This document shows positions 3,359 through 52,200 of a DNA stretch of 64,000 nucleotides, in pieces. The stretch is taken from assembly GCF_014189455.1 (NCBI RefSeq), contig NZ_CP050296.1:4026001-4090000 (forward strand), in the 5' to 3' direction. The DNA is from Mesorhizobium huakuii (lineage in GTDB: Bacteria > Pseudomonadota > Alphaproteobacteria > Rhizobiales > Rhizobiaceae). The notes below the pieces were generated by a model, which searched no databases, was not told the origin of the DNA, and was given only the letters and a program-made list of their open reading frames with translations. The translations under genes and the position numbers were made by a program. How positions within the stretch are numbered: the first letter of the stretch is position 1; each line of letters opens with the position of its first letter.

Positions 3359-3405
3359 TGCATGTCGCCCAAAAGTGACCTCGATTTTGGGAGAACGACA
3401 TGCAT
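3358..3405. repeat. palindromic intergenic element, first of two
   Basis: An imperfect inverted repeat. The arms ATGCATGTCG and its complement CGACATGCAT enclose a second pair, CCCAAAA and TTTTGGG. It begins on the last base of the luxR-type gene, so it may also act as a hairpin ending that transcript. It resembles palindromes commonly scattered between genes in Mesorhizobium. Confidence 0.6.
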
Positions 3406-3418
3406 AAAAACAAAGACC

Positions 3419-3460
3419 TAAAGCGCGTCGCATGAATCCGTTTCAACGCGACGCGCTTTA
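3419..3460. repeat. palindromic intergenic element, 13-bp perfect stem
   Basis: TAAAGCGCGTCGC at 3419-3431 pairs perfectly with its complement at 3448-3460. A diverged copy, reading in the opposite orientation and matching about 35 of 42 bases, lies at 61973-62014. This identifies a dispersed family of intergenic repeats. Confidence 0.7.
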
Positions 3461-3463
3461 GCC

Positions 3464-3493
3464 ACGTCAACTGTCCGATCGGACAGGTGACGT
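3464..3493. promoter_or_regulatory. lux-box-like operator upstream of the luxI-type gene
   Basis: A 30-bp palindrome with one mismatched pair. Its core CTGTCCGATCGGACAG (3471-3486) is perfect. The 20-bp block AACTGTCCGATCGGACAGGT (3469-3488) matches 16 of 20 positions of the classic lux box ACCTGTAGGATCGTACAGGT. It sits about 52 bases before the ATG of the synthase, the expected place for autoinduction by the adjacent LuxR-type regulator. Binding is inferred from position and symmetry. Confidence 0.75.
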
Positions 3494-3544
3494 ACTTTAG
3501 AACGGCTGCAACTATTCCTCCGAGATCGATCGGGGGATCGCGCA

Positions 3545-28586: not shown

Positions 28587-28748
28587 CGTCCCGTCCCGGC
28601 CGGCGACCGGCCAAACCTGCCGTTCAGGGATAGCCAACATTGTGGCGCCGCCATGTCATTGAAAGCTATCCGGCAAAGGCTTTCACAGAAGCGTTGTTCT
28701 TGGCCTTGCGCTTGCCGGTTCGATATGGCAGAAGCCCCGCCATCAGCG

Positions 28749-28823
<75 letters not shown>

Positions 28824-28906
28824 GTCTATCCCATTGAAATCATTGGATCCCTTGACATACAAGGGTTTACGTCCATTCTGATGTTACAAATGCCGTAACA
28901 AATCGG

Positions 28907-29395
28907 ATGGAATTGATGACAGGCCGTGTTCGAAATCTCCTGAATCGCGACGGCCGTTATTTCGCGCGGCTTGTCGTTCCGAAAGAGCTCCGGCCATACA
29001 TCGGGAAGGCCGAGTTGCGAAAAGCGCTCGGTCCCGACTACCGGACAGCCCTGAAGATGTTGCCAGGCGCTGTCGCTGTCCTGCAGCACGAGATCGCACT
29101 TGGCGAGCGCCGCGCCGTTGCGGCAGGCGAACAATTCATCATTGTGGGCCGCTACCCGCTTCTTCCACCACAAATAGCCAGCCGAGACTATCAAAATGCG
29201 CCTTGGGGCGTCACAGGGGTCATTTTGCGGGGCGTCACATCGTTACAACGTCGTCATAAACAGTTGATTTTATTACAGAAAGACAGAGTTCAATCCTCTT
29301 GCCGATCCGAACGGATGGACAGGCAACAAGCGACCAACCATTCTGAAGGCGGTCTCCTCCCAAGAGCTACACGGGTCTCGCTGAACCTCGCCTAG
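28907..29395 (+). pseudogene. truncated phage-type tyrosine integrase
   Basis: Only the N-terminal arm-binding part survives: RVRNLLNRDGRYFARLVVP, KELRPYIGKAELRKALG and LQHEIALGERRAVAAG are typical of the DUF6538 domain in rhizobial island integrases, with integrase-like sequence to about residue 97 (RYPLLPPQIASRDYQ). After that the frame reads as unrelated sequence; the catalytic R...HxxR...Y core is missing. It starts 84 bp from the tRNA-Thr end in the orientation typical of islands. GTTACAAATGCCGTAACAAA just before the start resembles an integrase arm site. Confidence 0.75.
29218..29299. repeat. second, partial att site inside the left end
   Basis: AGAGTTCAATCCTCT (29285-29299) repeats 15 bp of the tRNA-derived att core. 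The 65 bases before it align with the bases just inside the right att site (ending at 45005): both have CATTTTG, CGTCACA and GTTACAA in order, followed by an AT-rich stretch. So this looks like the right end of an earlier, mostly deleted insertion. Confidence 0.55.
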
Positions 29396-29410
29396 GCGAG
29401 GTCCCGAATC

Positions 29411-32400
29411 TCACGCGACGGCTAGGTCGGAATACTCAAGCACATGCCCGCTATCCATCGCGACGATCGCCAAAGCTTGACCAGACCCACTGCCGTCCGC
29501 GTCATAGTAAAGAACGTCATTGGCAGTGTTAAACCAGAAAACTTGGTTTGTATTAGTCGATCCCGTATCGTTTGCAACGAAATGAGATGCGTCTAATATT
29601 CCAATGTCAGCGCCCCCGCTCGCAAGACCTCCGCCGTATTTAGCGTGATCGAATTGGAAAATGTCGCCCGACGTAAAGCCGGATACGTGATTCAATCCGG
29701 TATCTGGTGATCCCACCCGAATGGCTGTATTGGCGCCAAGCAGATTGACGGTGTTGTCAGCCCCAGAAAGAAGGATGTTATCACTGTTGCCCGACACGTC
29801 CACGGTGTTCTGCGGCCCGACGAGCGAGATGGTATCGCCGGAGCCGGTGACCGTGAGATGGTTGCTACCGGACGGGTTGCCCGGGTTGGGGTCTGTAATG
29901 AAGTTCAGCGTGAGACCGTTTCCGCTGACGCCGATCTGGTCGTTGTAGGCATAGAGGGTCTGCGTCGTGTTGCTTGAAGAGACCGAGACCGTGTGTCCGT
30001 AGCCATAGAGCCTTGAGGTGCCATCGGTGCCGAAGATGTTGACGGTGTTGTAGAAGCCGCTCACCAGCAGCTGGTCAGTGGCGCCTTCCATGCTGATGGT
30101 GTTGTTGAATCCGCCCTCAAATACCAGGCTGTCGTTGCTGCCGCTGACGTGAACCTCGTTGGCGTCGGCATTGTCATAGTAGGTGCCTACCGTGACGGCG
30201 TCATTGTTGCCTGTCACGTTGACATGGTCGTGGGTGCCGGCGACGGTGACAGTATCGTTGGAACCGGTGCCGGGGAGAGGACCTGCCCCGATGGTGATGA
30301 CGCTGTTACTGGCGGCCAGCGTTGCGCCGGTGTTGTCGGACACAAGGTGGATCGGTGAGCTGCCGTTGACGGTAACGGAATCGTTGGTTCCAGAGACGAT
30401 CACGCCCCACGGATCGGAGAACTGTCCGGTGACGGTCACGTTGTCGTGGGCGCCGGCGACGGTGACGGTTGCGCCTGTCACACTGCCGGTGGAGGAAACC
30501 GACAAGGTTTGATTGTCGCCCTCCAGGGTGACACCCGTCCAGTTCGCCAGCGCGACGTTGTCGCCGCTGCCATTCAGATACATCGTGCTGTTGATGGCGC
30601 CGGCCATGCTGATGGTGTCGTTGTCGCCGGACAATATGATCGAGTGACCGCTGCCGCTGATGTTCACATTCGTGCTGCTGGCGGTGACCGTCAGATCGCT
30701 GTCGCTCTTGAGGCCGCTTGAGGAGCCGGCGCCGGAGAAGTTGATCGTATCGCTGCTGCCGGTGACCGCGACGACATCGTGCGCGCCCGAAAGGTTCAGC
30801 GTGTCGCTGTTGCCCGAGACGTTGATCGTATCGCTGCTACCCGCAAGCGTGATAGTCACTCCATTGTCGCCTGCTCCTAGCGTCACGATATTGCCGCTGC
30901 CTGCATTGACGGCCAGGTTCTGCCCATTCCTCGAGGCAAGGCTTTCGCCTGTGCCGGTGAGATTGAAGTTTTCGAATCCGCTGAAAGCCGCAAGGCTGTT
31001 GAGGTCGAACGATCCCGACCCGGAGATGCTGAGAGTGTCGATACCGCCGCCGCCGGTGAGGCGATCCCCGGCGTTTAGTGTCTGCGGTGTAGCGAACAAC
31101 GTATTGCTTCCACTCGCGAAGCTGACGGTCGCATTGCCAGGCCCAAGTGTGACGCTATTATTGTTTGATCCTGCTCCGAATGATACTACGTGATTATTGC
31201 CATACGAGATGTTCACCGAACTGTTAGATCCAGTGATGTTGACCGCGTCGTCGCTTTGACAATCAATTTGAACGACCGCATTGTTTCCGGAAATATTGAC
31301 AGAGTTTAAAGAGGCATAATAGCCAAATAAAACAGATGAATTGTCTCCTACTATGGAAACAGTCGCGAGATGGCTGGAGCCAAAATCAAGATTAGTATTG
31401 TCGCCGGTAACGGTTATCGTGTCGGAGTTGTTTCCAATGCTGAGGTTGTTTCCATCTCCCGTAATGCTAACTACATTGCCGCTTCCCAGATGTAATGTCC
31501 GAAACAAGGCGTTGTCAGCGTTAAGATGGAAGGTTGTCCCCGAGGACAAGAAGGTGACAACGTTTCCTGTGCCCGTAAGAGTGAGGCTGTCATTCGCTCC
31601 TGAGACGGTCACGGTCTCATGATCGCCTGCCACTGTTACTGTATCGCTGGTGCCGCCAACGGTGACCGCGTTGCCGCTACCGGACACCGAGACCGCAACA
31701 CCATCATTGCCGGTCGCCAGCGTCACCGAGTTGCCGCTTCCTGCGTTGACGGCGAGATGCTGACCATTCCTTAGGGTCAGGCTTTCGCCTGTGCCGGTGA
31801 GATTGACGTTTTCGAAGCCACTAAAGGCCGCGAGACTGTTGAGGTCGAATGATCCCGACCCGGAAAGCACCAGCGTGTCGATGCCGCTGCCGCCGGTGAG
31901 TTGATCACCTGAATTGAGCGTCAGCGCGTTGCCAAAAACCGTCGTATCGGCTGAGGATACAGGTATGACATCGTTTGCCGGCGTCAGATTTATGTATCGG
32001 CCGGTGCCGTCGACGAGGATCTCTATCGACCCTTGGGCGAGGATTGCGTCACGCTGGGCGGCCGTGAAGTCGAAGCCATTGGCTGCGATCGTGTCTTGAC
32101 CAAGACCGCCGTTAATCTGGAAGGCGGTTGCAGCGCTCGACACCGTAAAGGTGGTGCCGGTGGCATTGGTGCTGGTGAAGTGGACGTCAGTGGCGACGGT
32201 CTTGCCGGAAAGATCCACGCTGGTCCCCGAGGCTTGCACCTCACCTGATCCAATGAATTCATTGAATTGAGATATGGCGCCTTCCGCGGCAACAACCGCG
32301 CCATTCAGAAGATATAGATCTGGAACGCCACTGATCGTGGTCCCCGAAAGATCGTAGACACCATTTCCGCCATAAACCTGGACGCTGCCACTCGAATTCC

Positions 32401-35400
32401 CGCTGCCCTGGATGATATCTCCCGCGTGGAATTGTGAAGGATCAACGGCGACATAGGCGCTGTTGGCATTATTGGAACTATAGATTTGATACGTGCCGGT
32501 CGAAAGGAAGAAGTTGTCAGTGCCTTGGTCGTAGATCGTGGCCGACCCGCTCGAAAGATAGTAAAGGCCGATATGACCAAGCCCACTTTGGTCGTCGTAA
32601 ATTGTGGTCGAGCCCGAGCCCAGATAAACATGGTTGAAGGATCCGGCCCCGATGTGAGCCGCAACAGTGCCCGCATTGAACGTCAGCGTCTCATTGCCGA
32701 AGCCGGTGGTGTGGAGCGTCCCGCTGAACGCACCGGAAAGGGTAAGCGAGGTTGCTCCATTGCTCGCCAGGTCAATCTCTTCGAAGCCGCTGAAGTGCGC
32801 CAGGCTGTTGAGGTCTACGGTGCCAGACCCGGAGATGCTGAGCGTGTCGGTGCCGCTGCCGCCGGTGAGGCTGTCGCTGCTGTCGAAGGAGGAGGGCGTA
32901 GCGAATACCGTGTTGGTTCCACTCGTGAAGCTGACCGTCCCGCTACCACCTCCAAACGTTACGCTGTTGTCCGAACCAGCTCCGAACGACACCACGTGAT
33001 CATGGCCATATCCGAGGGTGACCGAACTATTGGATCCCGTGATGTTGACTGTGTCGCTGGCCTGGCACTCCACGTTAACGGTCGTGTTGTTGCCGGTGAT
33101 GTTCACGGTGTCATATGTCGAATAAAAACCAAATCCGATAGAACTGTTGTCACCAACTACGGATACAGTTGCAACATGGCCATCGCCAAAATCAACGGCC
33201 GTTCCATTTCCAGCAATTGTCCAATTGTCAAAATTATTGTGTAGCGTAAGGCTGTTGCTATTTCCTGTGATATTCCCTACCTCGGCGCCACCAGGATAGG
33301 TCGATGTCTCCACGGTGTTGTTGTTGCCTATGATCGATACCGTATCATTGGAGCCGTGGATGTTGATCGCATCCCCGCTGCCGGACACAGAGACGGTAAC
33401 GGCGTCGTCGCCTGCTGCCAGCGTCACCGTGTTGCCGCTGCCAGCGTTGACCGTGAGGTTCTGACCATTCCTCAGGGTCAGGCTTTCGCCGGTGCCTGTG
33501 AGATTGATGTTTTCGAAGCCGCTGAAGGCCGCAAGGGTGTTGAGGTCGAACGATCCCGCCGCGGAGAGCACCAGCGTCTCGGCACCGCTGCCGCCCGCCA
33601 GACTGTCCCCGCCGTTCAGCGTCGCGCCAGCGCCGATCGTCGCGTTGACGGTGTTCGTGCCGCCGGCGAAGCTCACGGTGTCCACGCCCGTGCCAAGCGT
33701 CACGGCATTGTTGTTAGATCCTGCACCAGAAAATGATACAAAACCCTCGTTACCGGTCATTACAACCGTATTATTCGATCCTGAGATGTTTACGGTATCG
33801 TTGGTCCCGCCCAGCGTGACGCTGTCGTTGTTCCCCAACAGGGTCAGGGTGGTGTTGTCGCTTGTCGTGACGCCATCGTTGCTTGCGGTGAGGCTTAGTC
33901 CAGCTTGGCTTCTCGCGTAGCTGACTGGCCCACTACCTTGCACGAGAACGTTGCCGTTTCCGGCAAGGCCGGTGCCTGAGTAGCCGCTCACCACTACAAG
34001 GTTGTCCGTTCCGTTTACAGACACACTTCCATAGCTGCCGGTCACGGTCACGAAGTCACTGCTGCCATTGACGCCAACCGAGCTGTAATCGCCGTTGACG
34101 GTGACGGTATCGTTGGCCCCATTGACCTGCACGATGTTTCCACTGTCGCCTCCGGGTTGGGCAACCACGACGGTGTTGTTGTCACCTATGACGTTCACCC
34201 TCTCGTTGTGGGTGGCCAGGGTCACACTGTCGTTGCTGCCCAGGAGATCGATCGAATTGTTGACCTGATAGGCATTCAGGCCATTGCTGGCGGTCAGCGT
34301 CAGGCTTGTATTGCTGGCGGTGAAGGCGACGGCATTGTTGTCACCCGCAATCGTCACCACGTCGTCACCGCCAGTCAGCTGAATGGTGTTGTTGGTGGAC
34401 GTCACGCCCAGGTTCGCGCTGTTCGATCCGAAGACCAGCTTGTCGTTGGTCCCGCCCAGCGTGACGCTGTCGTTCGTCCCGAACAGGCTCAGCGTGTCGT
34501 TGTTGCCCGAGAGGTTCACCGTGTTGCTGCTACCCGTCAAAGTGACGGTGTCGTTGGAGCCCGTCCCGGGGAGGGGGCCTGTTCCAATGGTGATGACGCT
34601 GCTGCTGGCGGCCAGCGTTGCGCTGGTGTTGTCGGAGACGAGGTGGATCGGTGAGCTGCCGTTGATGGTAACCGAATCGTCGGTCCCTGAGACGATCACG
34701 CCCCACGGGTCGGAGAATTGTCCGGTGACGGTCACGTTGTCGTGGGCACCGGCCACTGTGACGGTCGCGCCGGTGACACTGCCATTGGAGGAGACCGACA
34801 GGGTTTGATTGTCGCCCTCCAGGGTGACACCCGTCCAGTTCGCCAGCGCGACGTTGTCGCCGGTGCCATTCAGATACAATGTGCTGAAGGAGGCGCCCGC
34901 CATGCTGACGGTGTCGTTGTTGCCCGCCATGACGATCGAGTGACCGCTGCCGCTGATGTTCACATTCGTGCTGCTGGCAGTGATTGTGAGGTCGCTGTCA
35001 CTCTTGAGGCCGCTCGACGAGCCGGTGCCCGAGAAGTTGAGCGTATCGCTGCTGCCGGTGACCGCGATAACGTCGTGCGCGCCCAACAGGTTCAATGTGT
35101 CGCTGCCGCCAGAGACGTTCACGGTGTCGTTGTTGCCGGTTACGTTCGCAACGTCACCGTCGGCCTGCAGGTTCACCACGTCGCTGTTGCCGGTGACGTT
35201 TGCAGTGTTGGATGAGCCGTCTACGGTAAGGCTGCCATTGTCGCCGACCAAGGTGGCGGTGTTGAAGTGAGAGTAGATGTCAAGGGAGATGCTTCCATAG
35301 TTGCCGGTGAGTGTCACGGACCCATAGTTGGTGTCCGTGGAAATGTGGTTGTGGTCTCCGGTGACGCTCGCGGTCTCGTAGTTGCCGCCGACCAACACCG

Positions 35401-38400
35401 AATTATTGCTGCCCGTTACGCTGACAACGTCGCCCCAACCGGAGATTGTGGTTGAGTTGTTGTCGCCAGTGACGCTCATCGTCTGGCTGGCTCCCTGGTA
35501 GCCGTCGGCATAGAGGGTGGCGTTGGTCGCCGTCACTGCCAGGTTGGTGTTGTAAGTCGTGAAGTGCAACACATCACCGATGCCCGTCATCGACACCGTA
35601 TCGTTGCTGCCAGAGACGTTCACCGTCTCATTGTCACCTGAGACCGACACCGTATCGTTGGCGCCGCCAACGTTGACCGCGCCGCTGCCGCCAGACACCG
35701 AGACCGTAGCTCCATTGTCGCCGGTTCCCAGCGTCACCGTGTTGCCGCTGCCGGCGTTGACAGCTAGGTTCTGCCCGTTCTTCAGGGTCAGGCTTTCACC
35801 CGTGCCGGTGAGATTGACGTTTTCGAAGCCACTAAAGGCCGCGAGACTGTTGAGGTCGAATGATCCCGACCCGGAAAGCACCAGCGTGTCAATGCCGCTG
35901 CCGCCGGTGAGTTGATCACCTGAATTGAGCGTCAGCGCGTTGCCAAAAACCGTCGTATCGGCTGAGGATACAGGTATGACATCGTTTGCCGGCGTCAGAT
36001 TTATGTATCGGCCGGTGCCGTCGACGAGGATCTCTATCGACCCTTGGGCGAGGATTGCGTCACGCTGGGCGGCCGTGAAGTCGAAGCCATTGGCTGCGAT
36101 CGTGTCTTGACCAAGACCGCCGTTAATCTGGAAGGCGGTTGCAGCGCTCGACACCGTAAAGGTGGTGCCGGTGGCATTGGTGCTGGTGAAGTGGACGTCA
36201 GTGGCGACGGTCTTGCCGGAAAGATCCACGCTGGTCCCCGAGGCTTGCACCTCACCTGATCCAATGAATTCATTGAATTGAGATATGGCGCCTTCCGCGG
36301 CAACAACCGCGCCATTCAGAAGATATAGATCTGGAACGCCACTGATCGTGGTCCCCGAAAGATCGTAGACACCATTTCCGCCATAAACCTGGACGCTGCC
36401 ACTCGAATTCCCGCTGCCCTGGATGATATCTCCCGCGTGGAATTGTGAAGGATCAACGGCGACATAGGCGCTGTTGGCATTATTGGAACTATAGATTTGA
36501 TACGTGCCGGTCGAAAGGAAGAAGTTGTCAGTGCCTTGGTCGTAGATCGTGGCCGACCCGCTCGAAAGATAGTAAAGGCCGATATGACCAAGCCCACTTT
36601 GGTCGTCGTAAATTGTGGTCGAGCCCGAGCCCAGATAAACATGGTTGAAGGATCCGGCCCCGATGTGAGCCGCAACAGTGCCCGCATTGAACGTCAGCGT
36701 CTCATTGCCGAAGCCGGTGGTGTGGAGCGTCCCGCTGAACGCACCGGAAAGGGTAAGCGAGGTTGCTCCATTGGTCGCCAGGTCAATATCGTCGAAGCCG
36801 CTGAAGTGGGCCAAAGTGCTCAGGTCAAAGCTACCGGCACCTCCCAGAGTCAGCGTGTCAATGCCGCTGCCTCCGGTCAGACTGTCGCCGCTGTTCAAAG
36901 TCGACGCCGTCGCGAACACCGTGTTGGTGCCGCTCAAGAAACTGACCGTCGCGCTGCCCGCTCCGAGTGTGACGCTGTTATCCGAGCCCGCACCGAACGC
37001 CACCACGTGGCCGTTGCCGTATGCGAGCGTCACCGAACTATTGGATCCGGTGATATTGATCGTGTCGCTGGCCTGGCAGTCCACATTCACGATCGAGTTG
37101 TTGCCGTTAATGTTGGCAGTGTCATACGTCGAATAGAAGCCAAATCCGACCGAGCTGTTGTCGCCCACTATCGATACGGTGGTGCCATGGCTATCGCCAA
37201 AATCAACGGACGTTCCGTTTCCGGAGACCGCCAAAGTATCGTTGTTATTGTGCAGGGAGAGAGTGTTACCGTTCCCCGCAATGCTCACCGTATCGCCGCC
37301 GCCTGGATAATAGGTCTGCACAAAGGTGTTATCAGCAGTGAGATGGAAAGTTGTGCCGGCGGCAATCAGGTTTACGCTGTCGGCCGTGCCCAAAATCGTC
37401 AGGCTTGCATTGGTGCCCGCGACGTTGATCGTGTCGTGGGCCCCAGTGACGGTCACCACATGATCGCCGCCCGACAGGTTCAATGTGTCGTTATTCCCCG
37501 AGAGGTTTACCGTGTCGCTGCTGCCCGTCAAAGCAACGGTGTCGTTGGAACCGGTGCCGGGGAGAGGACCTGTTCCAATGGTGATGACGCTGTTGGTGGC
37601 GGCCAGCGTTGCGCCGGTGTTGTCGGAGACAAGGTGGATCGGTGAGCTGCCGTTGATGGTAACGGAATCGTTCGTTCCAGAGACGATCACGCCCCACGGA
37701 TCGGAGAACTGCCCGGTGACGGTCACGTTGTCGTGGGCACCGGCCACGGTGACGGTTGCGCCGGTGACACTGCCAGTGGAGGAGACAGAAAGGGTTTGAT
37801 TGTCGCCCTCCAAGGTGACACCGGTCGAGTTCGCCAGCGTGACGTTGTCGCCGGTGCCATTCAGATACATCGTGCTGTTGACGGCGCCAGCCATGCTGAT
37901 GGTGTCGTTGTCGCCGGACAATATGATCGAGTGACCGCTGCCGCTGATGTTCACATTCGTGCTGCTGGCCGTGACCGTCAGATCGCTGTCGCTCTTGAGG
38001 CCGCTTGAGGAGCCGGCGCCGGAGAAGTTGATCGTATCGCTGGTGCCAGTGACCGCGACGACGTCGTGTGCGCCCGACAGGTTCAACGTGTCGCTGTTGC
38101 CGGAGACGTTGATCGTATCGCTGCTACCCGCAAGCGTGATAGTCACTCCGTTGTCGCCTGCTGCCAGCGTCACCGTATTGCCGTTGCCGGCGGCGACCGT
38201 CAGGTTCTGACCGTCCTTCAGGGTGAGGCTCTCGCCGGTGCCAGTGAGATTGATGTTTTCGAAGCCGGTAAAGGTTGCCAGGCTGTTGAGATCGATAGAA
38301 CCTGCGCCGGAAATCACCAGCGTGTCGGTAGCGCTGCCGCCGGTGAGGCGATCACCGCTGTTGAGCGTGGCACCCGCGCCGATCGTCGCGTTCACCGCGT

Positions 38401-40669
38401 TCGAGCCGCTGGTGAAAGTGACGGTATCGTTACCGGTCCCGAGCGTCACGGCGTTACCACTGCCGCCACTCACGGTGAGGTTCTGACCATTCTTCAGGGT
38501 CAGGCTCTCGCTGGTGCCGGTGAGATTGATGTTCTCGAAGCCGGTGAATGTCGCCAGGCTGTTGAGGTTAAATGATCCCGATCCGGAGATGCTGAGCGTG
38601 TCGGCGCCGCTGCCGCCGGCGAGGGCATCACCAATATTCAGGGTCGCGCCCGCCCCGATTGCCGCGTTTATCGTGTTCGAGCCGCCCGTGAAAGTCACCG
38701 TGTCATTGCCGGTCCCGAGGGTAACCGTATTGCCGCTGCCGGCGGCGACCGTCAGGTTCTGACCGTTCTTCAGGGTCAGGCTTTTGCCGCTGCCGGTCAG
38801 AAGTATGGTCTCGAAGCCGGTGAAGCTAGCCAGGGTGTTCAGGTCAAATGACCCCGACCCCGAGATGTTGAGCAAGTCGGAGTTGATGCCACCCGAGAGG
38901 CTATCTCCACTGTTCAACGTCGCGCTTGCGCCGATCGTCGCGTTCACCGTGTTGGTGGCAGAAACGAAAGCGACCGTGTCGTTCCCAGTCCCAAGCGTCA
39001 CGGTATTTCCGATACCCGCGTTGACCGTCAGGTTTTGCCCATTCTTCAGTATAAGACTTTCGCCTGTGCCGGTGAGATTGACATTTTCGAAGCCGGAAAA
39101 GGTCGTCAGACTGTTGAGGTCGACCGAACCTGCACCGGAGATGCTGAGCGTGTCGGTGCCGATGCCGCCGGTGAGGCGATCACCGCTGTTGAGTGTGGCA
39201 CCCGCGCCGATCGTCGCGTTGACCGTGTTCGAGCCGCTGGTGAAAGTGACGGTATCGTTACCGGTCCCGAGCGTCACGGCGTTACCACTGCCGCCACTCA
39301 CGGTGAGGTTCTGACCATTCTTCAGGGTCAGGCTCTCGCCGGTGCCGGTGAGATTGATGTTTTCGAAGCCGGTGAATGTCGCCAGGCTGTTGAGGTTAAA
39401 TGATCCCGATCCGGAGATGATAAGCGTGTCGGCGCCGCTGCCGCCGGTGAGGCGATCACCGCTGTTGAGTGTGGCACCCGCGCCGATCGTCGCGTTGACC
39501 GTGTTCGTGCCGCCGGCGAAGGCGACCGTGTCATTGCCGGTCCCCAGGGTAACCGTATTGCCGCTGCCGGCGGCGACCGTCAGGTTCTGACCGTTCTTCA
39601 GCGTCAGGCTCTCGCCGCTGCCGGAGAGATTGATGTTTTCGAAGCCGGTGAAGGTAGCCAGGCTATTGAGGTCGAACGAGCCAGACCCGGAAATATTGAG
39701 GCTATCGGTGGCACTGCCGCCGGTGAGGCGATCCCCACCGTTCAGCGTCGCGCCAGCGCCGATCGTCGCGTTGACCGTGTTCGTGCCGCCGGTGAAGGCG
39801 ATCGTGTCATTGCCGGTCCCCAGGGTCACCGTATTGCCGCTGCCGGCGGCGACCGTCAGGTTCTGACCGTTCTTCAGGGTGAGGCTCTCGCCGGTGCCAG
39901 TGAGATTGATGTTTTCGAAGCCGGTAAAGGTTGCCAGGCTGTTGAGATCGATAGAACCTGCGCCGGAAATCACCAGCGTGTCGGTAGCGCTGCCGCCGGT
40001 GAGGCGATCACCGCTGTTGAGTGTGGCACCCGCGCCGATCGTCGCGTTCACCGTGTTCGAGCCGCTGGTGAAAGCGACGGTGTCGTTACCGGTCCCGAGC
40101 GTCACGGCGTTACCAATGCCGCCACTCACGGTGAGGTTCTGACCATTCTTCAGGGTCAGGCTCTCGCTGGTGCCGGTGAGATTGATGTTTTCGAAGCCGG
40201 TGAATGTCGCCAGGCTGTTGAGGTTAAATGATCCCGATCCGGAGATGCTAAGCGTGTCGGCGCCGCTGCCGCCGGTGAGGCGATCACCGCTGTTGAGTGT
40301 GGCACCCGCGCCGATCGTCGCGTTCACCGTGTTCGAGCCGCCCGTGAAAGTCACCGTGTCATTGCCGGTCCCGAGGGTAACCGTATTGCCGCTGCCTGCA
40401 TTCACTGTGAGGTTCTGACCATTCTTCAGGGTCAGGCTCTCCCCGGTGCCGGTGAGATTGACGTTTTCAAAGCCGGTGAAGGTTGCCAAGCTGTTGAGAT
40501 CGAACGATCCCGACCCAGAGATGCTAAGCGTGTCAATGCCGGTGCCGCCGGTGAGGCGATCGCCGCTATTCAGCGTCGCGCCCGCGCCGATCGTCCCAAA
40601 AACCGTGTTCGAGCTCGATCCGTTGAAGGTAACAGTATCGTTGGCGGTCGTAAGAGTTTTTGATGGCAT
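29411..40669 (-). CDS. giant repeat protein, type I secretion substrate
   Basis: A single open frame of 3,752 residues, very rich in Gly, Ser, Thr, Asn, Asp and Val. The start has GGGAGGA five bases upstream. N-terminal third: nine units of 92 residues (FTGFENINLTGTGESLTLKN, then TLGTGNDTV), with four more copies spread further on (13 in all). Between them are short beta-strand repeats such as NDTVNVSGNND, expected to form a long beta-helix or beta-roll. The C-terminal about 110 residues (FDHAKYGGGLASGG, then YYDADGSGSGQALAIVAM) match uncleaved type I secretion signals. No signal peptide. A PrtD-type ATPase and HlyD-type adaptor lie just upstream on the other strand. Likely a surface or extracellular adhesin or matrix protein; function unproven. 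Confidence 0.85.
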   Translation of the reverse strand: MPSKTLTTANDTVTFNGSSSNTVFGTIGAGATLNSGDRLTGGTGIDTLSISGSGSFDLNSLATFTGFENVNLTGTGESLTLKNGQNLTVNAGSGNTVTLGTGNDTVTFTGGSNTVNATIGAGATLNSGDRLTGGSGADTLSISGSGSFNLNSLATFTGFENINLTGTSESLTLKNGQNLTVSGGIGNAVTLGTGNDTVAFTSGSNTVNATIGAGATLNSGDRLTGGSATDTLVISGAGSIDLNSLATFTGFENINLTGTGESLTLKNGQNLTVAAGSGNTVTLGTGNDTIAFTGGTNTVNATIGAGATLNGGDRLTGGSATDSLNISGSGSFDLNSLATFTGFENINLSGSGESLTLKNGQNLTVAAGSGNTVTLGTGNDTVAFAGGTNTVNATIGAGATLNSGDRLTGGSGADTLIISGSGSFNLNSLATFTGFENINLTGTGESLTLKNGQNLTVSGGSGNAVTLGTGNDTVTFTSGSNTVNATIGAGATLNSGDRLTGGIGTDTLSISGAGSVDLNSLTTFSGFENVNLTGTGESLILKNGQNLTVNAGIGNTVTLGTGNDTVAFVSATNTVNATIGASATLNSGDSLSGGINSDLLNISGSGSFDLNTLASFTGFETILLTGSGKSLTLKNGQNLTVAAGSGNTVTLGTGNDTVTFTGGSNTINAAIGAGATLNIGDALAGGSGADTLSISGSGSFNLNSLATFTGFENINLTGTSESLTLKNGQNLTVSGGSGNAVTLGTGNDTVTFTSGSNAVNATIGAGATLNSGDRLTGGSATDTLVISGAGSIDLNSLATFTGFENINLTGTGESLTLKDGQNLTVAAGNGNTVTLAAGDNGVTITLAGSSDTINVSGNSDTLNLSGAHDVVAVTGTSDTINFSGAGSSSGLKSDSDLTVTASSTNVNISGSGHSIILSGDNDTISMAGAVNSTMYLNGTGDNVTLANSTGVTLEGDNQTLSVSSTGSVTGATVTVAGAHDNVTVTGQFSDPWGVIVSGTNDSVTINGSSPIHLVSDNTGATLAATNSVITIGTGPLPGTGSNDTVALTGSSDTVNLSGNNDTLNLSGGDHVVTVTGAHDTINVAGTNASLTILGTADSVNLIAAGTTFHLTADNTFVQTYYPGGGDTVSIAGNGNTLSLHNNNDTLAVSGNGTSVDFGDSHGTTVSIVGDNSSVGFGFYSTYDTANINGNNSIVNVDCQASDTINITGSNSSVTLAYGNGHVVAFGAGSDNSVTLGAGSATVSFLSGTNTVFATASTLNSGDSLTGGSGIDTLTLGGAGSFDLSTLAHFSGFDDIDLATNGATSLTLSGAFSGTLHTTGFGNETLTFNAGTVAAHIGAGSFNHVYLGSGSTTIYDDQSGLGHIGLYYLSSGSATIYDQGTDNFFLSTGTYQIYSSNNANSAYVAVDPSQFHAGDIIQGSGNSSGSVQVYGGNGVYDLSGTTISGVPDLYLLNGAVVAAEGAISQFNEFIGSGEVQASGTSVDLSGKTVATDVHFTSTNATGTTFTVSSAATAFQINGGLGQDTIAANGFDFTAAQRDAILAQGSIEILVDGTGRYINLTPANDVIPVSSADTTVFGNALTLNSGDQLTGGSGIDTLVLSGSGSFDLNSLAAFSGFENVNLTGTGESLTLKNGQNLAVNAGSGNTVTLGTGDNGATVSVSGGSGAVNVGGANDTVSVSGDNETVNVSGSNDTVSMTGIGDVLHFTTYNTNLAVTATNATLYADGYQGASQTMSVTGDNNSTTISGWGDVVSVTGSNNSVLVGGNYETASVTGDHNHISTDTNYGSVTLTGNYGSISLDIYSHFNTATLVGDNGSLTVDGSSNTANVTGNSDVVNLQADGDVANVTGNNDTVNVSGGSDTLNLLGAHDVIAVTGSSDTLNFSGTGSSSGLKSDSDLTITASSTNVNISGSGHSIVMAGNNDTVSMAGASFSTLYLNGTGDNVALANWTGVTLEGDNQTLSVSSNGSVTGATVTVAGAHDNVTVTGQFSDPWGVIVSGTDDSVTINGSSPIHLVSDNTSATLAASSSVITIGTGPLPGTGSNDTVTLTGSSNTVNLSGNNDTLSLFGTNDSVTLGGTNDKLVFGSNSANLGVTSTNNTIQLTGGDDVVTIAGDNNAVAFTASNTSLTLTASNGLNAYQVNNSIDLLGSNDSVTLATHNERVNVIGDNNTVVVAQPGGDSGNIVQVNGANDTVTVNGDYSSVGVNGSSDFVTVTGSYGSVSVNGTDNLVVVSGYSGTGLAGNGNVLVQGSGPVSYARSQAGLSLTASNDGVTTSDNTTLTLLGNNDSVTLGGTNDTVNISGSNNTVVMTGNEGFVSFSGAGSNNNAVTLGTGVDTVSFAGGTNTVNATIGAGATLNGGDSLAGGSGAETLVLSAAGSFDLNTLAAFSGFENINLTGTGESLTLRNGQNLTVNAGSGNTVTLAAGDDAVTVSVSGSGDAINIHGSNDTVSIIGNNNTVETSTYPGGAEVGNITGNSNSLTLHNNFDNWTIAGNGTAVDFGDGHVATVSVVGDNSSIGFGFYSTYDTVNITGNNTTVNVECQASDTVNITGSNSSVTLGYGHDHVVSFGAGSDNSVTFGGGSGTVSFTSGTNTVFATPSSFDSSDSLTGGSGTDTLSISGSGTVDLNSLAHFSGFEEIDLASNGATSLTLSGAFSGTLHTTGFGNETLTFNAGTVAAHIGAGSFNHVYLGSGSTTIYDDQSGLGHIGLYYLSSGSATIYDQGTDNFFLSTGTYQIYSSNNANSAYVAVDPSQFHAGDIIQGSGNSSGSVQVYGGNGVYDLSGTTISGVPDLYLLNGAVVAAEGAISQFNEFIGSGEVQASGTSVDLSGKTVATDVHFTSTNATGTTFTVSSAATAFQINGGLGQDTIAANGFDFTAAQRDAILAQGSIEILVDGTGRYINLTPANDVIPVSSADTTVFGNALTLNSGDQLTGGSGIDTLVLSGSGSFDLNSLAAFSGFENVNLTGTGESLTLRNGQHLAVNAGSGNSVTLATGNDGVAVSVSGSGNAVTVGGTSDTVTVAGDHETVTVSGANDSLTLTGTGNVVTFLSSGTTFHLNADNALFRTLHLGSGNVVSITGDGNNLSIGNNSDTITVTGDNTNLDFGSSHLATVSIVGDNSSVLFGYYASLNSVNISGNNAVVQIDCQSDDAVNITGSNSSVNISYGNNHVVSFGAGSNNNSVTLGPGNATVSFASGSNTLFATPQTLNAGDRLTGGGGIDTLSISGSGSFDLNSLAAFSGFENFNLTGTGESLASRNGQNLAVNAGSGNIVTLGAGDNGVTITLAGSSDTINVSGNSDTLNLSGAHDVVAVTGSSDTINFSGAGSSSGLKSDSDLTVTASSTNVNISGSGHSIILSGDNDTISMAGAINSTMYLNGSGDNVALANWTGVTLEGDNQTLSVSSTGSVTGATVTVAGAHDNVTVTGQFSDPWGVIVSGTNDSVTVNGSSPIHLVSDNTGATLAASNSVITIGAGPLPGTGSNDTVTVAGTHDHVNVTGNNDAVTVGTYYDNADANEVHVSGSNDSLVFEGGFNNTISMEGATDQLLVSGFYNTVNIFGTDGTSRLYGYGHTVSVSSSNTTQTLYAYNDQIGVSGNGLTLNFITDPNPGNPSGSNHLTVTGSGDTISLVGPQNTVDVSGNSDNILLSGADNTVNLLGANTAIRVGSPDTGLNHVSGFTSGDIFQFDHAKYGGGLASGGADIGILDASHFVANDTGSTNTNQVFWFNTANDVLYYDADGSGSGQALAIVAMDSGHVLEYSDLAVA
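31791..32760 (-). repeat. 970-bp internal duplication, copy A
   Basis: Matches 35802-36771 with one visible mismatch in the stretch compared (31880 versus 35891) at an offset of 4,011 bp (1,337 codons). It includes the only non-repetitive-looking segment of the giant protein (TDNFFLSTGTYQIYSS, AVDPSQFHAGDIIQGSG). Confidence 0.8.
35802..36771 (-). repeat. 970-bp internal duplication, copy B
   Basis: Second copy of the segment at 31791-32760. Sequence outside both ends is clearly diverged, so the identity is confined to this block. Confidence 0.8.
38190..40660 (-). repeat. nine tandem 276-bp repeats
   Basis: Units of 276 bp (92 codons) in the 5' third of the giant gene. Similarity is also visible at larger spacing: 38223-38486 matches 39879-40142, six units (1,656 bp) away, suggesting block duplication within the array. 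Ends approximate. Confidence 0.8.
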
Positions 40670-41231: not shown

Positions 41232-42977
41232 TTGGATAAGCCACGCAATAAAAATACAAACGTGATGTCCAAGAGCGTGATTGAGATGGGCCTGTTCTCG
41301 GCAGTCATCAACGCGTTACTCCTAGTTATCCCGTTATACATGGTTCAAATCTATGACAGGGTTCTACCTGCGGCTAATATAAATACGTTAATATATCTAA
41401 GTATAATTGCGGTGTCGTCCATTCTATTGTTTGCAGTTCTTGAGGTCCTGCGGGGTATGTATGCGAGCCGACTCGCTGCGAGGCTCGATGTGAGGTTGGG
41501 CTCGACATCCTTTCTCGCAGCGATGAATGGACCGCGGGCGGGGCTTGGCGATGTCCAATCTTTGCGCGACCTGGCCACCGTGCGAGGTATAATCGCCTCG
41601 CGGACCATCTTTTTCCTCTTTGACTTACCGTTTGGGCTAATCTTCGTGGGGCTACTCTACTTCATTCATCCTTTGCTGTTCCTGGTGACCGCAGCCGGAG
41701 CGATTCTTATGGTTGCCATCGCGGTGCTCAACCAAGCCGCGAGTTCAAATCCGAGTAGAGGGGCGGCAGAGAACCTTGCCGCCGCAATGAATTCGGCTCA
41801 GGCCTTTTCACGAAACTTCGAGACAATCCGCGCGCTTGGCATGGTGTCTAATGCAATCGAATTCTGGGGAACCGGTTTCTCCGGTTTCCTGCACGCCTCG
41901 GATCGGGTTGCTCGTATCAATGCGTTGTATAGCGGTATCTCCAGAGCGACGCGAACGGGCCTGCAAATCGCTATATTGGGTGTCGGCGCCTATTTGGTTC
42001 TGCACAACGAAATTACAGCGGGTATGATATTTGCGTCCTCGATGGTTGCAGCCCGTGCGTTGCAGCCTCTTGACCAGATAATTGGAAGCTGGCGGCAAAT
42101 TGTCGAAGCAAATCTGGCATGGAAGAGACTTTCGATCGCGGCTAGCAATGCCCCCAATCGGGATCAAGTGGCACTCCCGCCCGCTAAAGGGACGTTGACC
42201 GTTGACCAGGTTGTGTATCAGGTTCCCGGCTCGGTCGACGGCTCGTTACCCCTAATAAAGCGGGTGAGCTTTGAGGCCGCAGCCGGTGAAGCAATTGCTA
42301 TTGTCGGGCCTTCCCAAGCTGGAAAATCGACGCTGGCACGCCTCATAGTCGGTGCCATTGAGCCTCGCTCGGGTTCGATCCGGATCGACGGTGGCGAAGT
42401 TCGAAACTGGGATCCAGAGGAACTTGGTCGGCACATCGGCTATCTTCCGCAAGACGTGGAACTGTTCCCAGGCACAATCGGCCAGAACATTGCCCGTTTC
42501 GACCCGGTTGCCTCGAATGAAAGCATCGTTGAGGCGGCACAGCGAGCGCAGGTGCATGATCTCATCCTCGGTCAAAGACACGGATACTCGACTGTGATCG
42601 GCCCCACTGGCGTTCGCCTCTCTGGTGGCGAGCGTCAACGCATTGGGCTCGCGCGCGCCTTCTACGGCGATCCCAAGGTCCTGGTTCTTGACGAGCCAAA
42701 TGCAAATCTTGACGCCCTCGGCGAGGCCGCACTTGAGCGTGCGATCATGCAAGCTCGATCGCAGAAGAGAACAGTGCTTGTCATAACCCACCGGCCGTCT
42801 CTCGCTGGGAAATGCGATCGCATACTCATGCTGCGCAATGGCCAAGTAGAGATTTTCGGATTCAGCAAGGAAGTGCTCGACGAACTTGCCCAACGGCAGA
42901 GCCCAGTGCAGCCGCCGGAAGCGTCGCAAACCCTTCCGCCTCGCCCTCTTCACGTTGATGAGGATAGGCGCCAATGA
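41232..42977 (+). CDS. type I secretion ABC transporter (PrtD family)
   Basis: A 581-residue inner-membrane exporter: a six-helix membrane domain (about 15-300), then an ATPase. Walker [11 protein letters not shown]-loop [12 protein letters not shown], signature [14 protein letters not shown], Walker [13 protein letters not shown], switch ITHRP. The frame starts with TTG after AGGGGGA; an ATG at 41265 is an alternative. No peptidase or CLD domain is visible N-terminally. It overlaps the HlyD gene by four bases. Together they should export the giant repeat protein encoded divergently upstream; the outer-membrane TolC partner is not in this window. Confidence 0.9.
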
Positions 42978-44320
42978 CGGGTCCTAGCCAAGGCATGCAG
43001 ATAATGCCGCGAACATATCGCTGGCAGGACCATGTCAACACGCGCACAGACCGGATTGCGTTGGTGGCATACGGGGTCATGGCTGTGTTTTTGCTAGGAT
43101 TCGGATTGTGGGCCGGCACTGCGCCTATCGCGGGAGCAATGATTGCCCCGGGCCTGATAGTGGCTGCCGGACAGAACGTTCTGATCCAGCATCTCGAAGG
43201 AGGCGTAGTCCGCAGCATCAGGGTCCGGGAGGGAGACAGGGTCTCACGGGGTCAAGCCCTTCTCGTGCTCGATCCGACACTGGCCGAAGCGCAACTGAAC
43301 CGAGTGCTGAAACAATGGGTTGCTCAGAAGGCTGAGATCGCCCGCCTTGAGGCGGAGCGCGATGGACTGAACGATATCGCATTTTCCGGCGACCTGGCCG
43401 ACTATTCCAATGGTTCCGAGTTCGGTGATGTCTTCCGGGAACAAGCCAAGGAATTTCGGGCTCGGCTGGCTCGTTACACCGCCGAAGGTGAGATTCTCAA
43501 GCAACGGGTGACGGCCCTTCAGGAGGCTGTTGTTGGGCTAAGGGCTCAAAAAAAGGGAATGGAAAATCAACTTACGGTCGTCAACGAGGAGACGGAGCGG
43601 AAGAAGAACCTGTTGGAGAAAGGGCTTACAAACCGTTCCGAATATACAGATCTTCTTCGCAGCAGCGCTGAATTGGTTGGCCAGGCGGGATCGCTGGAGG
43701 CGCAAATCGCCAGTTCGGCAACCCAGATCGTAGAGGCTAAAGAGCAAATCGAGCGGCTTACGACCAGTCGAGTTGAAGACGCAGACTCGGAGCTTAATAA
43801 GGTCCGCGCCGAAGTTGCAGATGTCGAGGAGCAGATCAAAGCCGCTCGTTCGGTGCTTGATCGCACGACCATTCGGGCCCCGGCCGATGGGATCATTGTT
43901 AGGTCGCTCTACAATTCAGAAGGCAGTGTCATCCGAGCTGGTGAGGCGGTGATGGAGCTTCTGCCGACCACGAACGAATTGATCGTCGAGGCCAAAATAA
44001 AGCCCGAAGACATCGACGCTGTCCGGGTAGGACAAGATGCGAACATGATGTTCACGGCAATGAATGCGAGGACGACCCCGAAGGTCCCAGGAAAGGTATT
44101 CTACGTGTCTGCAGACCGGCTGGTAATGCCCAGCACCGGACAATCTTACTACACTGTGCGTCTGCGTATGGCCGACCCACTGCCACCGCAAATCAAACGC
44201 GACCAGATCTATCCGGGTATGCCGGTGGAGACTTTCATATCAACCGGGGAACGAACGTTCTTGGCTTATTTGACCAAGCCGCTGATGGACTCGTTCCAGC
44301 GCGCTTTCCGGGAGCGGTAG
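42974..44320 (+). CDS. HlyD/PrtE-family membrane-fusion protein
   Basis: A 448-residue periplasmic adaptor for type I secretion. One N-terminal membrane segment (about 30-50), a lipoyl half-motif ([25 protein letters not shown]), a long coiled coil (about 120-280, with Leu/Glu/Lys heptads), and the second half-motif with [20 protein letters not shown], then the beta-barrel region. Overlaps the ATPase stop (ATGA). Confidence 0.9.
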
Positions 44321-45005: not shown

Positions 45006-45036
45006 AGAGTTCAATCCTCTCTCGCAGCACCAGTCT
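45006..45036. repeat. attR, 31-bp direct repeat of the tRNA-Thr 3' end
   Basis: Perfect copy of 28797-28827. It is preceded by an AT-rich stretch with ATGTTACAAACAG, which resembles the GTTACAAATG motif near the integrase start and may be an arm-type site. Confidence 0.9.
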
Positions 45037-45084
45037 TTTCCGCGCGAGCGCGGCTGACCTTCAAACTCCTCACCGCGGCGTGAT

Positions 45085-45306
45085 CTATCCGATGTGTGAT
45101 GAGGTTCCAGCGGCCTTGATCAATTCGTCCTCGCTCCTCACCCCATGTCGGTATGCGGCAACGATTTCCTCCGCTATGATTTCCGCCTCCAACGAATGGT
45201 CGTCTACCAGGCGTTGACGACATGCCGTGTCGAACGCACGACTCAATAGAGCCAACTCCTTGGCACTTAGGATGCCGTATTTTAGTGCTTGGTCGGTAAC
45301 GGACAT
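45085..45306 (-). CDS. small hypothetical protein just right of attR
   Basis: A 73-residue, mostly helical and acidic protein (MSVTDQALKYGILSAKELAL, then DHSLEAEIIAEEIVAAYRHG). The start at 45306 has GGAGGA eight bases upstream; the longer frame to 45471 reads as non-protein. No family recognised. It lies in the first sequence beyond the island. Confidence 0.6.
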   Translation of the reverse strand: MSVTDQALKYGILSAKELALLSRAFDTACRQRLVDDHSLEAEIIAEEIVAAYRHGVRSEDELIKAAGTSSHIG

Positions 45307-45819
45307 CGCCCAGGTCCTCCGCAACCTTGGTTGAGGACGGCCCCCTGTCCTCAAGGCCCGGCTCGGAGGGCCAGTAGGAGGAGCGTCGCGGAGGGGGAGG
45401 CGACGGATAGGCCTGCACTGGGGGGCGGTAGGCCTACTCCTCCTACCTGTTGCCGAGCCTGAGCTAAACAACGGCTGATTATACCCCTGAATGGCGGTAG
45501 CGCCAGTATTGTTTCATGGTGTTATAATTGTTGAACGCAGAGAGAGGGCTCATGCGGCGGGGGGCTCGATGTCCGCCCGCTCACAATACCACTTTATTAG
45601 GGGATGGCCTCAGGCGACGGACGAGTTCACCGCGCTGTGTGGCAGCGAGAGCGCTTACTTGGTGCCACGAAGAAATATCGCCTCAAGGCTGCCCGTGGAG
45701 GATCAAACTCAGCACCCCGTAGTGCCGATCCACAGCGGGATGGCCGCCGACGCCAGCAGGGCGTGGATGGGCGGGATCATGAAATCGAGCAGCCGCCCCC
45801 AAAGCGCCCCAGCGGGTTG
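45307..45819. other. intergenic stretch, no convincing gene
   Basis: About 510 bases. The only suggestive item is a minus-strand 23-codon hydrophobic frame (MIPPIHALLASAAIPLWIGT) directly after the GGDEF-protein stop, possibly the start of a lost membrane protein. Plus-strand frames here are the reverse of coding sequence or random. Confidence 0.4.
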
Positions 45820-49281: not shown

Positions 49282-52200
49282 TTAGGCCACGTCCGTCTTG
49301 GTGCCGTGGCTGTCATCGTAAAGTATTTTCACCGCTTCGGCAGCGCTGTGGAACGTATAGTTCTCCAGCACGGCGACCGTATGGTAGTTGTCGCCACCGC
49401 CATTCGTGTCGACCTTGACTTCGGCATTCGCCGCATTGGCCAAGGACTGCGAGATCTCCACAAAGCCGCCGGCTTCGAGATCGGTTACGCCGGCCAGACC
49501 TTTCAGCAGCGCGGAGAGATCGATCTTGTCGCCGTTGGCGCCATCGTGGAAGTCGGCGATCAGATCGGCGACTTCCAGCGAGCCGATGGCGAATGTCCTG
49601 GTACCATCGGAGGCGACAGACGGCTGCGCCGGGGCAACCAGCGATGTGTCGAGTTCCACCTCGATGTAGTTGCCGCTCGTGCCGTCGGCCATCTGGAACG
49701 TGCCGTTGCCGGTCACGGTCTGCCCGTCGATTTCGCCGACAGCGGGGTGCGCTGCCGTGTTGATGGAGGCAACACCGTTGTCGGCGAGGCTCGACAGTTC
49801 CCCGGCGTCGCTGGTGCCATTAGCATTGGCGTCCTTCCAGATCAGCAGGCTGCTGAACGCCGCGTCGTTGTGATCGATGACGCCGTCATGGTTGCTGTCG
49901 AGCGATGCCAGTGCGGCCGCGCCGCTGGCGAAATGGCCACCATCGAAGTTCGGCGTGAACAGCTCGGTGCCGTCATCGATCTTGCCGTCATGGTTGAGGT
50001 CGACCGCCAGCATGCCGTCGTTCGAGGTGTTCCAGGCCAGTTGCTCCTTGGTGCCGTCGCCGTTCATGTCGAACTGAGCACCGTGGCTGACGTCGGAGAA
50101 TGTAAAGCCATTGTGGTTCAGGTCGAGGATAACGGGATCGACCGATCCCCCGATCAACGTGTTCAGATTCGCCACGGTGACGCCCTGCAGATCGACCAGC
50201 GCTCCAACGCCGGCGCTGGCGGTTGTCTGGGTATAGACGTAGGTGTGATTCACCCCGGAGATCGTTGCCGTGAATGCGAGCGTCGCCCCGGCATTGCCGA
50301 TGTCCGTGCCCATAAGATACTGGACCGCTGCGGCCACGCCTGACGTTGTGGTGATCGCCAGGGGCGAGGTGCCGGCATCGGTCCCGAAGAAACTGGCGAT
50401 GCCGTTCGTGACCGAATGGGACTCAACCGTGTCTCCGCCGATCGTCAGGACGGAATCTCCTGCTCCGTCGACGAGGCCGGCAGTCGCAGCCACCAGCGTC
50501 CCGGGCAGGGTCAATTTGTCGGTCCCGGCGACGAAGTCGGTGATGACGTCATAGCCGGAGATCGTCCCGGCATTGCCGGATCCGCCTATGACGGGGATGG
50601 AATCTCCTGTACCGATTACGAAGGTGTCAGCGCCAGCTCCACCTGTGAGAAAATCATTACCGCCTCGCCCAACAATGACATCGTTTCCACCTCCACCGGA
50701 CAGATGATCGACACCCGACGTTCCATAGATCTGGTCGGCCAATGTGGCGTCGCCATTCACCGTGATGCCGGGATCGCCCGGGTCATGCGAGAAGAATGAG
50801 AAGCTGACTTGGCGTGCCTGGTAATTACCGCCATTGTTGTCGAAGTAAGACAGCGTCCATGAGTCGCCGGCTGTCGGTGGGTGGTCGATCAGATAGCTGG
50901 CAAGCGTTGTGGTCGTGGCGTTGCCGCCGGCATCGAGCAAGAAAACATGGTCATAGTTGACCGTCGCCTTCATCAGGCCGGTAGCGGCATCAAAGAACCA
51001 GCTCTGCTCGAATGTTCCGGCAGTCAGGTCGTCTTCGACAACCGCGAAATGGTTGGTGCCTATGATGATCTCGACCTGGACCTCTTGCTCGCGATGCGAT
51101 CCTGCACTGCTGTCTCCGAACACGCCGGGATTCTGCTCCGATACAGGGATAGGCGTGTCGAAAGGGCTCTCTTGGAAGTCGGTATAGACCACTACCGTCG
51201 CGCCGTGAGGATCAGCCGTTATGGCGTTTACCGTGGCTGCAGAAAGGGTCAGCGTCGTGACCTGGTCATTTCCCGACGTAAGCGGGCTCTTGCCAGTGCC
51301 GATCTGTGATGTGTCGCTGGGCAGACTGGTCGGCGGCACTTCATGAATGCCAACCGTCTGCGTGACGTGGGCAGTGCCGTCATAGACGTCCAGCGACAGG
51401 TTGTTGTTGACCGTATCGGTTACCGTCGTGGTCGGTCTGTACACCAGGTCATCCAGCAGGTTGATGCTGGCGGACGGATTGTAGAGCACGGTGCCAGTGG
51501 TCAGGGCGACATAGCTCACGCCGTTGAAATAGAACGTGCCGGTGGGGATCGTTCCCGTCGCGGTGACAATGAGATTGTCGCCATCCGCATCCGTGGGGAT
51601 TGTGACCAGAAGGGGATATCCATTGGGGTAGGTTGGCGTGCCCAATGCTTGCTGCCCTGGGTCGCTCGACATCCAGTTCTGGGTGTTGGCGACAACTGGT
51701 GCATCGTTGATGTCGGTCAGGTTGATGGTGAGGGTTGTCGTCGACAGGTCGCCGTCGCCGTCCTTGATGGTGTAGACGAACACGTCCGTGGTGTTGGAGT
51801 TGATGCCGTGGGCCGTAGACTGGTAGGTGTAGGAGCCGTCGGCGTTGAGATGCAGTGTGCCGTGTAGACCGGCGATGTCGCTGCCCGCTCCCGTAGTCAC
51901 CGCCGTCGTGGTGTCGCCACCACGCGGCGCGGGCACCCACAACCCCGCCGCCGGCAGCAAAGCCGTCGGCGCCGGCAACGTCATTGGCCAGCACGCCGGC
52001 GCGGCCGTCACGGTCAGCAGGGCACCTTCGTTGACGTTGCCCGAGTTGGCGTTTGCCGTGGGCACATCGTCGACGATGTTGACGGTGATGGTTCCGGTGC
52101 TGGTGTTGCCGTTGGCGTCGGTGACCTTATAGGTAAAGTTCTCTGCACTCTCGATGTTGGTGCCATTGTTGGCGTCCGGCGAGGTGTCGAACGGCTTGGT

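Follow-up and report, generated by a model that had tools for sequence, protein, structure and literature searches.

What does a bacterium do with a protein of 3,752 residues, built of repeats and encoded beside a type I exporter? We analysed a window of 64,000 nucleotides from Mesorhizobium huakuii (contig NZ_CP050296.1, positions 4,026,001 to 4,090,000), in which a gene on the minus strand at 29411..40669 encodes such a putative type I secretion substrate (~370 kDa, isoelectric point 4.05), hereafter the giant. We think it reasonably probable that the giant is a type I-exported, calcium-sparse beta-roll that serves as a released or loosely held surface or matrix fibre; its fold is predicted by models, and we infer its export, its sparing use of calcium and its part in adhesion.

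The gene opens with an ATG, with a Shine-Dalgarno-like GGGAGGA just 5' of it, and remains a single open frame over exactly these coordinates. The first-pass annotation had already described the uninterrupted frame, to which we add the strand. The product contains 3 cysteines and 39 lysines and arginines. Three segments, the most similar of 12 alignments printed, gave ratios of non-synonymous to synonymous substitution rates (dN/dS) of 0.15 (874 codons) and 0.19 (477 codons) against pieces from Mesorhizobium hawassense (G034 in our genome sample, with contig pieces identical to the named record) and 0.11 (400 codons) against a piece from genome G058. Because of these low values, we regard the gene as real and under purifying selection. 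The remaining nine alignments, most of which pair repeats with other repeats, gave dN/dS of 0.13-0.39; the longest among them covers 1,462 codons at 58% identity, with dN/dS 0.32. A chance frame is ruled out by dN/dS and by the counts of a nine-residue motif against shuffled sequences, given below. The stretch from 28700 to 29500 has a single weak site resembling a terminator and none resembling a promoter.

Repeat architecture and predicted fold

The N-terminal part of the giant comprises nine tandem 92-residue units (residues 33-860; 38090..40573), which begin at residue 33, follow one another at a spacing of exactly 92 residues and share 61-90% identity between neighbours. The autocorrelation at lag 92 over residues 1-900 is 3.65, against a mean of -0.42. 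Further single units start at residues 1258, 1581, 2351, 2918 and 3198, with an additional one near residue 2595 (DNA repeat family D5, 15 copies). A 408-residue module occurs twice, at residues 1262-1669 (35663..36886) and 2599-3006 (31652..32875), the two copies being 94% identical in amino acid sequence. Arrays of nine-residue rungs, with approximate boundaries, occupy residues ~846-1250 (36920..38134), ~1640-2340 (33650..35752) and ~3265-3650 (29720..30877), the last of which we modelled. The C-terminal ~100 residues (29414..29719) look like a type I substrate's end and resemble the C-termini of some other proteins encoded near type I exporters. All of these elements lie on the minus strand.

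The nine-residue motif G..[DN].[VILFA].[VILMFA] matches 96 times, against 10.5 +/- 3.0 in 200 shuffles, and forms 41 tandem pairs, against 0.2. A cyclic nine-state hidden Markov model gained 1,148 units of log-likelihood on the giant and 108-118 on three shuffles; the number of residues that it placed in register (2,919 of 3,752) was discarded, as shuffles reach 2,786-2,882. In Pfam, DUF3060 (PF11259) matches 15 stretches of the giant (E 7e-39, 131.8 bits against a gathering cut-off of 23.1) and is the sole family over cut-off among three listed at E <= 1, and we assign the rungs to the DUF3060 type on this match. The Pfam matches to BT_MCC_alpha and FtsK_SpoIIIE_N were judged spurious, as were NCBIfam matches to HAD and phosphoglycerate mutase models far below cut-off. 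The Pfam RTX family (PF00353) is not listed at E <= 1, neither Pfam nor NCBIfam gave a match at that limit to Ig, VCBS or BapA-type repeats or to a LapA/BapA-type N-terminal retention part, and no enzymatic module exceeds the cut-offs of either collection. Strict RTX nonapeptides (GGxGxD) number 12, none in tandem, and occur in five of the nine tandem units. The picture drawn from the raw sequence earlier thus holds in its parts: 92-residue units, present in tandem and later as single copies; short strands, which prove to be the nine-residue repeat; few RTX nonapeptides; no Ig or VCBS domain; and no obvious enzyme.

A census of RTX turns, made on 92 rungs of the giant chosen by a neutral rule, found a complete G-G-x-G turn in 11% and a hydrophobic fourth residue after Asp/Asn in 77%. 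The corresponding values are 27% and 15% for the RTX giant P0012 (218 rungs), 0% and 70% for P0025 (44 rungs), and 2% and 60% for P0024 (92 rungs). In most rungs of the giant, therefore, a second hydrophobic residue replaces the calcium turn.

Searched against the PDB, a profile of the 92-residue unit matched one sequence at E <= 0.01, that of RsaA, the S-layer protein of Caulobacter (5n97_A residues 1-80, a single 80-residue stretch; E 3.6e-4). Because the match carries a composition bias of 17.1 bits, we checked it against shuffles: the RsaA segment scored 30.0 bits, its reversal 3.8, and the best shuffle 9.0 (2,000 shuffles, of which 1,996 were reported). By this profile, the unit is related to RsaA. 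A single-sequence search of the PDB with the giant gave nothing of note, and profile A2 gave no match there better than E 0.064. An AlphaFold2 model of three 92-residue units reached a predicted local distance difference test score (pLDDT) of 95.1, and the closest solved structures to it are RTX beta-rolls. The model of the C-terminal rung array is a beta-solenoid with strands about every nine residues. Beta-solenoids, many of them polysaccharide-active, dominate the solved matches to both models, which support the giant being a very long beta-solenoid, much as the very long beta-helix suggested earlier.

Export genes and the tRNA-Thr island

Divergent from the giant gene lie genes for a type I secretion permease/ATPase of the PrtD subfamily (41232..42977, plus strand; TIGR01842, 588.7 bits) and a HlyD-family type I periplasmic adaptor (42974..44320, plus strand; TIGR01843, 383.1 bits), both over cut-off, so that the adjacent ATPase of the first-pass annotation is confirmed and joined by its adaptor. 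The arrangement is kept in G034 and G058, in both of which the giant is cut off by the contig end. Among 100 genomes, 12 others have an exporter 71-82% identical to this one. At these 12 loci (three more distant paralogues were examined too), the neighbour is this giant at two, another large repeat protein at two (G012 and G046, different proteins with a single GTND motif each) and an RTX protein at one; the other seven have no frame of more than 300 residues with less than 5% Lys/Arg/Cys/Trp in the stretch taken. Given neighbours so varied, exporters of this family probably have differing substrates. The three that adjoin this giant group as one clade (97/100) when 17 exporters are placed in a tree. 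A plasmid search with the exporter returned at least 5,000 records, all of those counted being below 60% identity. Outside the island described below, the same genome holds 13 matches to OEP/TolC-type domains.

The giant's C-terminus has matches at E <= 1e-3 in nine of 61 genomes including its own (eight of 60 others, one of them the G034 orthologue); the best match apart from that orthologue is in G079 (E 1.6e-8). Type I export of the giant is supported by the adjoining exporter and adaptor genes and by their retention in G034 and G058. In G019 and G025, two of the seven loci just mentioned, an orthologous exporter adjoins a frame of 469-481 residues with a C-terminus similar to the giant's (L070, G019:C388; L071, G025:C65). 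The G019 frame contains an RTX stretch, appears parallel beta-helix-like by eye and is otherwise a quite different cargo.

The giant, exporter and adaptor lie on a genomic island at tRNA-Thr, a location new relative to the first-pass annotation. The 3' end of a tRNA-Thr (ggt) gene (28749..28823), the integration target, forms part of the left attachment repeat (28797..28827), and an exact copy of these 31 bp, the right attachment repeat, is found 16,209 bp away (45006..45036); a partial 15-bp copy of the tRNA end lies at 29285..29299, and all of these are on the plus strand. Between the 31-bp copies are the giant, exporter and adaptor genes and small open reading frames. One of the latter, of 162 residues (28907..29395, plus strand), has a DUF6538 domain (E 1.2e-7, over cut-off), which we take to be the N-terminal domain of tyrosine recombinases (integrases); the frame is probably a remnant of such an N-terminus, and no intact integrase was found in the island. 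In genome G050, matches that end at window position 28825 and start at 45816 lie only 40 bp apart (92-93% identity), from which we conclude that ~17 kb was inserted here, namely the 16.2-kb island and ~0.8 kb more. The island call is based on this near-empty site and on the tRNA-end repeat at both ends. The GC content is 0.578 inside the island against 0.625/0.634 outside, and at third codon positions (GC3) it is 0.59-0.73 for the giant, exporter and adaptor against 0.83-0.85 for hisD and an EPSP-synthase-family gene.

The flanks are ~130 bp apart in G027 and ~280 bp apart in G034, so the giant of G034 must be located elsewhere in its genome. For G058, of which 3 kb was compared, the left flank alone was matched; in that genome the giant and exporter module (L043, G058:C33, 5300-9815) adjoins conjugation genes (VirB8, TrbI, DUF2274, DUF736), and one frame matches both a replication-initiator model and VirB8. 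The G050 site also lacks the ~0.8 kb that separates the right repeat from the conserved flank (45037-45815). G031 has a stretch with 92% identity to a part of this segment (~45075-45361), and the segment is perhaps the remains of another insertion. Several Mesorhizobium genomes, among them G048 (L103), G046, G039, G049 and G007, have a second copy of tRNA-Thr (ggt), whole or as its 3' part, 0.7 to ~70 kb downstream. The gene is probably an integration hotspot in Mesorhizobium, and an integrative mobilisable element at tRNA-Thr in another Mesorhizobium has been published, according to the portion of that report available (PMC8627217).

A candidate fibre and its alternatives

In the explanation that we favour, the giant would leave the cell unfolded and C-terminus first through the PrtD/HlyD pair and a TolC-like channel from another locus of the genome. 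Once outside, the chain would fold one rung after another, giving a mostly uninterrupted beta-roll ~0.1 micrometre long, as expected for ~200 turns at the beta-roll geometry of 18 residues and 0.48 nm per turn. Calcium would probably be bound by the few canonical GGxGxD rungs, of which a 92-residue unit has about one at most, and these would then serve as clamps at intervals and as points where folding begins. The DUF3060-type rungs, with a second hydrophobic residue for the calcium turn, would stack without calcium. As no enzyme domain and no LapA/BapA-type N-terminal retention part were found, the giant would most likely act in attachment or aggregation as a surface or matrix fibre, which makes a role as adhesin or matrix protein plausible. 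The gene and its exporter form one module on the island. A bolder form of this proposal is more tentative and, in our estimate, leans towards doubtful: a sparse-calcium substrate in which a ~200-turn roll has at most about one calcium rung per 92 residues and its other rungs are stacked like the curli core, so that the folding that drives export would need calcium only at spaced clamps, making the giant, as cargo exchanged on islands with its exporter, a mobile and genetically encoded nanofibre of the cell surface, of a length set by the number of units.

Several findings weigh against the fibre. The 92-residue unit is present in only four of 146 Mesorhizobium genomes at E <= 1e-10. In structure comparisons by Foldseek, the best RTX match to the model of the 92-residue units has E 7.1e-3 and RsaA E 2.8, and the C-terminal model, from an alignment of eight rows, is only moderate. 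The calcium independence of the DUF3060-type rungs is read from sequence alone. The island contains no channel gene, and the C-terminal matches from G019 and G025 are weak (E 6e-4 and 7e-4). The giant's C-terminus does not match TIGR03661, the NCBIfam type I C-terminal model, which the neighbouring adhesin's C-terminus does match; the type I C-terminal signal proposed earlier therefore survives as a resemblance to some C-termini near type I exporters and fails on this model. As to the island, another gene of the window (2462-3358) also has a GC3 of 0.70, and among 29 relatives' tRNA-Thr loci, with ~1.5 kb downstream examined, the right flank directly follows at one (G050).

Relatedness to RsaA raises the idea of an S-layer-like coat, with RsaA-type units packed edge to edge in a calcium-dependent sheet and not in single fibres. 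We consider this unlikely, since the giant is 3.7 times longer than RsaA, RTX rolls fit the 92-residue-unit model better than RsaA does, and rarity in the genus is unlike a housekeeping coat. Moreover, with units from residue 33 onwards there is no room for an RsaA-type N-terminal anchor domain of ~250 residues, although no dedicated search for the RsaA N-terminus was made.

We give similarly low odds to a soluble protein of the extracellular matrix that attaches to exopolysaccharide and influences the form of its polymer, as a counterpart of the Rap proteins known from Rhizobium leguminosarum. In rhizobia, the Rap proteins leave by the type I system PrsDE and function in the biofilm matrix, as stated in the available part of PMC9298526, and the beta-solenoids that dominate the solved matches include many that are polysaccharide-active. 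However, the giant has no cadherin-like or catalytic domain over cut-off, and the solenoid lyases share ~6-13% identity with our models, which may reflect a common fold only. Decay, in which a non-functional island gene stays long because its biased repeats avoid stops, fits the integrase remnant and the rarity of the gene but is very improbable given dN/dS of 0.11-0.19 on the segments of 400, 477 and 874 codons, with all 12 alignments printed staying under 0.4, together with an open frame, a ribosome-binding site and intact exporter frames.

Relatives and comparison with known systems

The four genomes with the 92-residue unit are M. huakuii itself, G034, G058 and the more distant G128, whose unit (44-45% identity) occurs in a 4,940-residue frame adjoining its own exporter. 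At a laxer limit of 1e-6, six of 101 relatives match, adding G031, G065 and G067 at 34-48% identity. A protein-database search with the giant, its seed words taken from the first 500 residues, returned 17 proteins at E <= 1e-3; a second search with residues 1720-2340 added three giants, each of which carries a PF11259 entry. For residues 1281-1580, a part of the first 408-residue copy, five genomes out of 396 others sampled in the order contain relatives, and PHROGs has no match; a homologue search with residues 1280-1580 restricted to whole proteins of ~2,060-6,570 residues found none. PADLOC made no defence-system call, and BLAST of the giant against itself gave the trivial hit only. With relatives of its units and rungs in other giants, the architecture is, as far as sequence comparison goes, a new combination of known modules; we found no mention of the protein itself in the open-access literature searched.

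A second giant adhesin is found in the same window (49282-60670, minus strand), BapA/LapF-like and with T1SS-143 and VCBS matches. It is split over overlapping frames (55448-60670, 52485-55700 and 49282-52737), with the shifts in near-identical repeats, and the frame changes could be real breaks or assembly errors. Its last frame includes an RTX stretch and ends with a C-terminus of the T1SS_VCA0849 type. Adjoining it are a match to a LapG-type protease (Peptidase_C93; 61458-61793, plus strand), a second HlyD gene (62643-63932) and, just past the window, an OEP channel gene (G000:C1:4092318-4093505), a set that looks Lap-like. LapA/BapA-type adhesins carry Ig, VCBS or BapA-type repeats, which this second protein has and the giant lacks at the limits given above.

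RTX beta-rolls, such as the RTX blocks of adenylate cyclase toxin and the antifreeze beta-roll 3p4g, are the best fold matches to the giant and share its nine-residue period. The RTX turn, calcium-driven folding and type I export of RTX proteins are described in the accessible part of PMC6891781; unlike those proteins, the giant has its 12 GGxGxD rungs scattered, and most of its rungs have no calcium turn. RsaA (PDB 5n97, 6z7p) is likewise exported by a type I system, and residues 1-80 of 5n97_A match the unit profile. According to the sections of PMC8828063 available, RsaA has 1,026 residues, with an N-terminal lipopolysaccharide-binding domain and a lattice-forming part, and its assembly is calcium-dependent; the giant instead has nine tandem units and DUF3060 arrays, with no N-terminal anchor. 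DUF3060, matched by 15 stretches here, is itself a family of unknown function, named in the open-access text searched only in a vaccine-design study. If our reading is right, the family gains a structural role as a calcium-free beta-roll rung, and the giant offers a natural protein of mostly non-calcium rungs in which to test how far type I export needs calcium-driven folding.

The Bradyrhizobium giants P0007 and P0008 ('VCBS domain-containing protein'), the best matches in the protein database, have tandem 92-residue units in common with the giant, at 64% identity over 25% of it and 60% over 23%, respectively; P0007, unlike the giant, has DUF4347, cadherin and RTX domains. A giant with type I genes at a tRNA gene is also known from Mesorhizobium in ICEMladh-R88B and IMEMl-R88B (PMC4334104, PMC8627217). 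In the available part of its description, the former is a mobilisable element with genes for two type I secretion proteins and for an adhesin-like protein of 4,681 residues with VCBS repeats (PMC4334104). That protein has 34 VCBS repeats, whereas the giant has no VCBS match and is made of RsaA-like and DUF3060 repeats; the element lies in tandem at tRNA-Phe with an integrase, an excisionase and traACD, whereas the island described here lies at tRNA-Thr, with only an integrase remnant found. The undescribed class and unfamiliar architecture proposed earlier are not supported in view of these precedents, nor in view of a unit that the profile search ties to a solved S-layer protein and that recurs in Bradyrhizobium, an RTX-roll-like model and DUF3060 rungs. 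In the giant, subjects usually treated separately meet, namely RTX and S-layer beta-rolls, DUF3060 and the mobile surface-protein cargo of rhizobia. Our reading also suggests that soil Mesorhizobium exchange giant surface proteins together with their exporters. Giant surface proteins secreted by type I systems and encoded with their exporters on Mesorhizobium elements are an already known class; new are the composition of the repeats and the island at tRNA-Thr.
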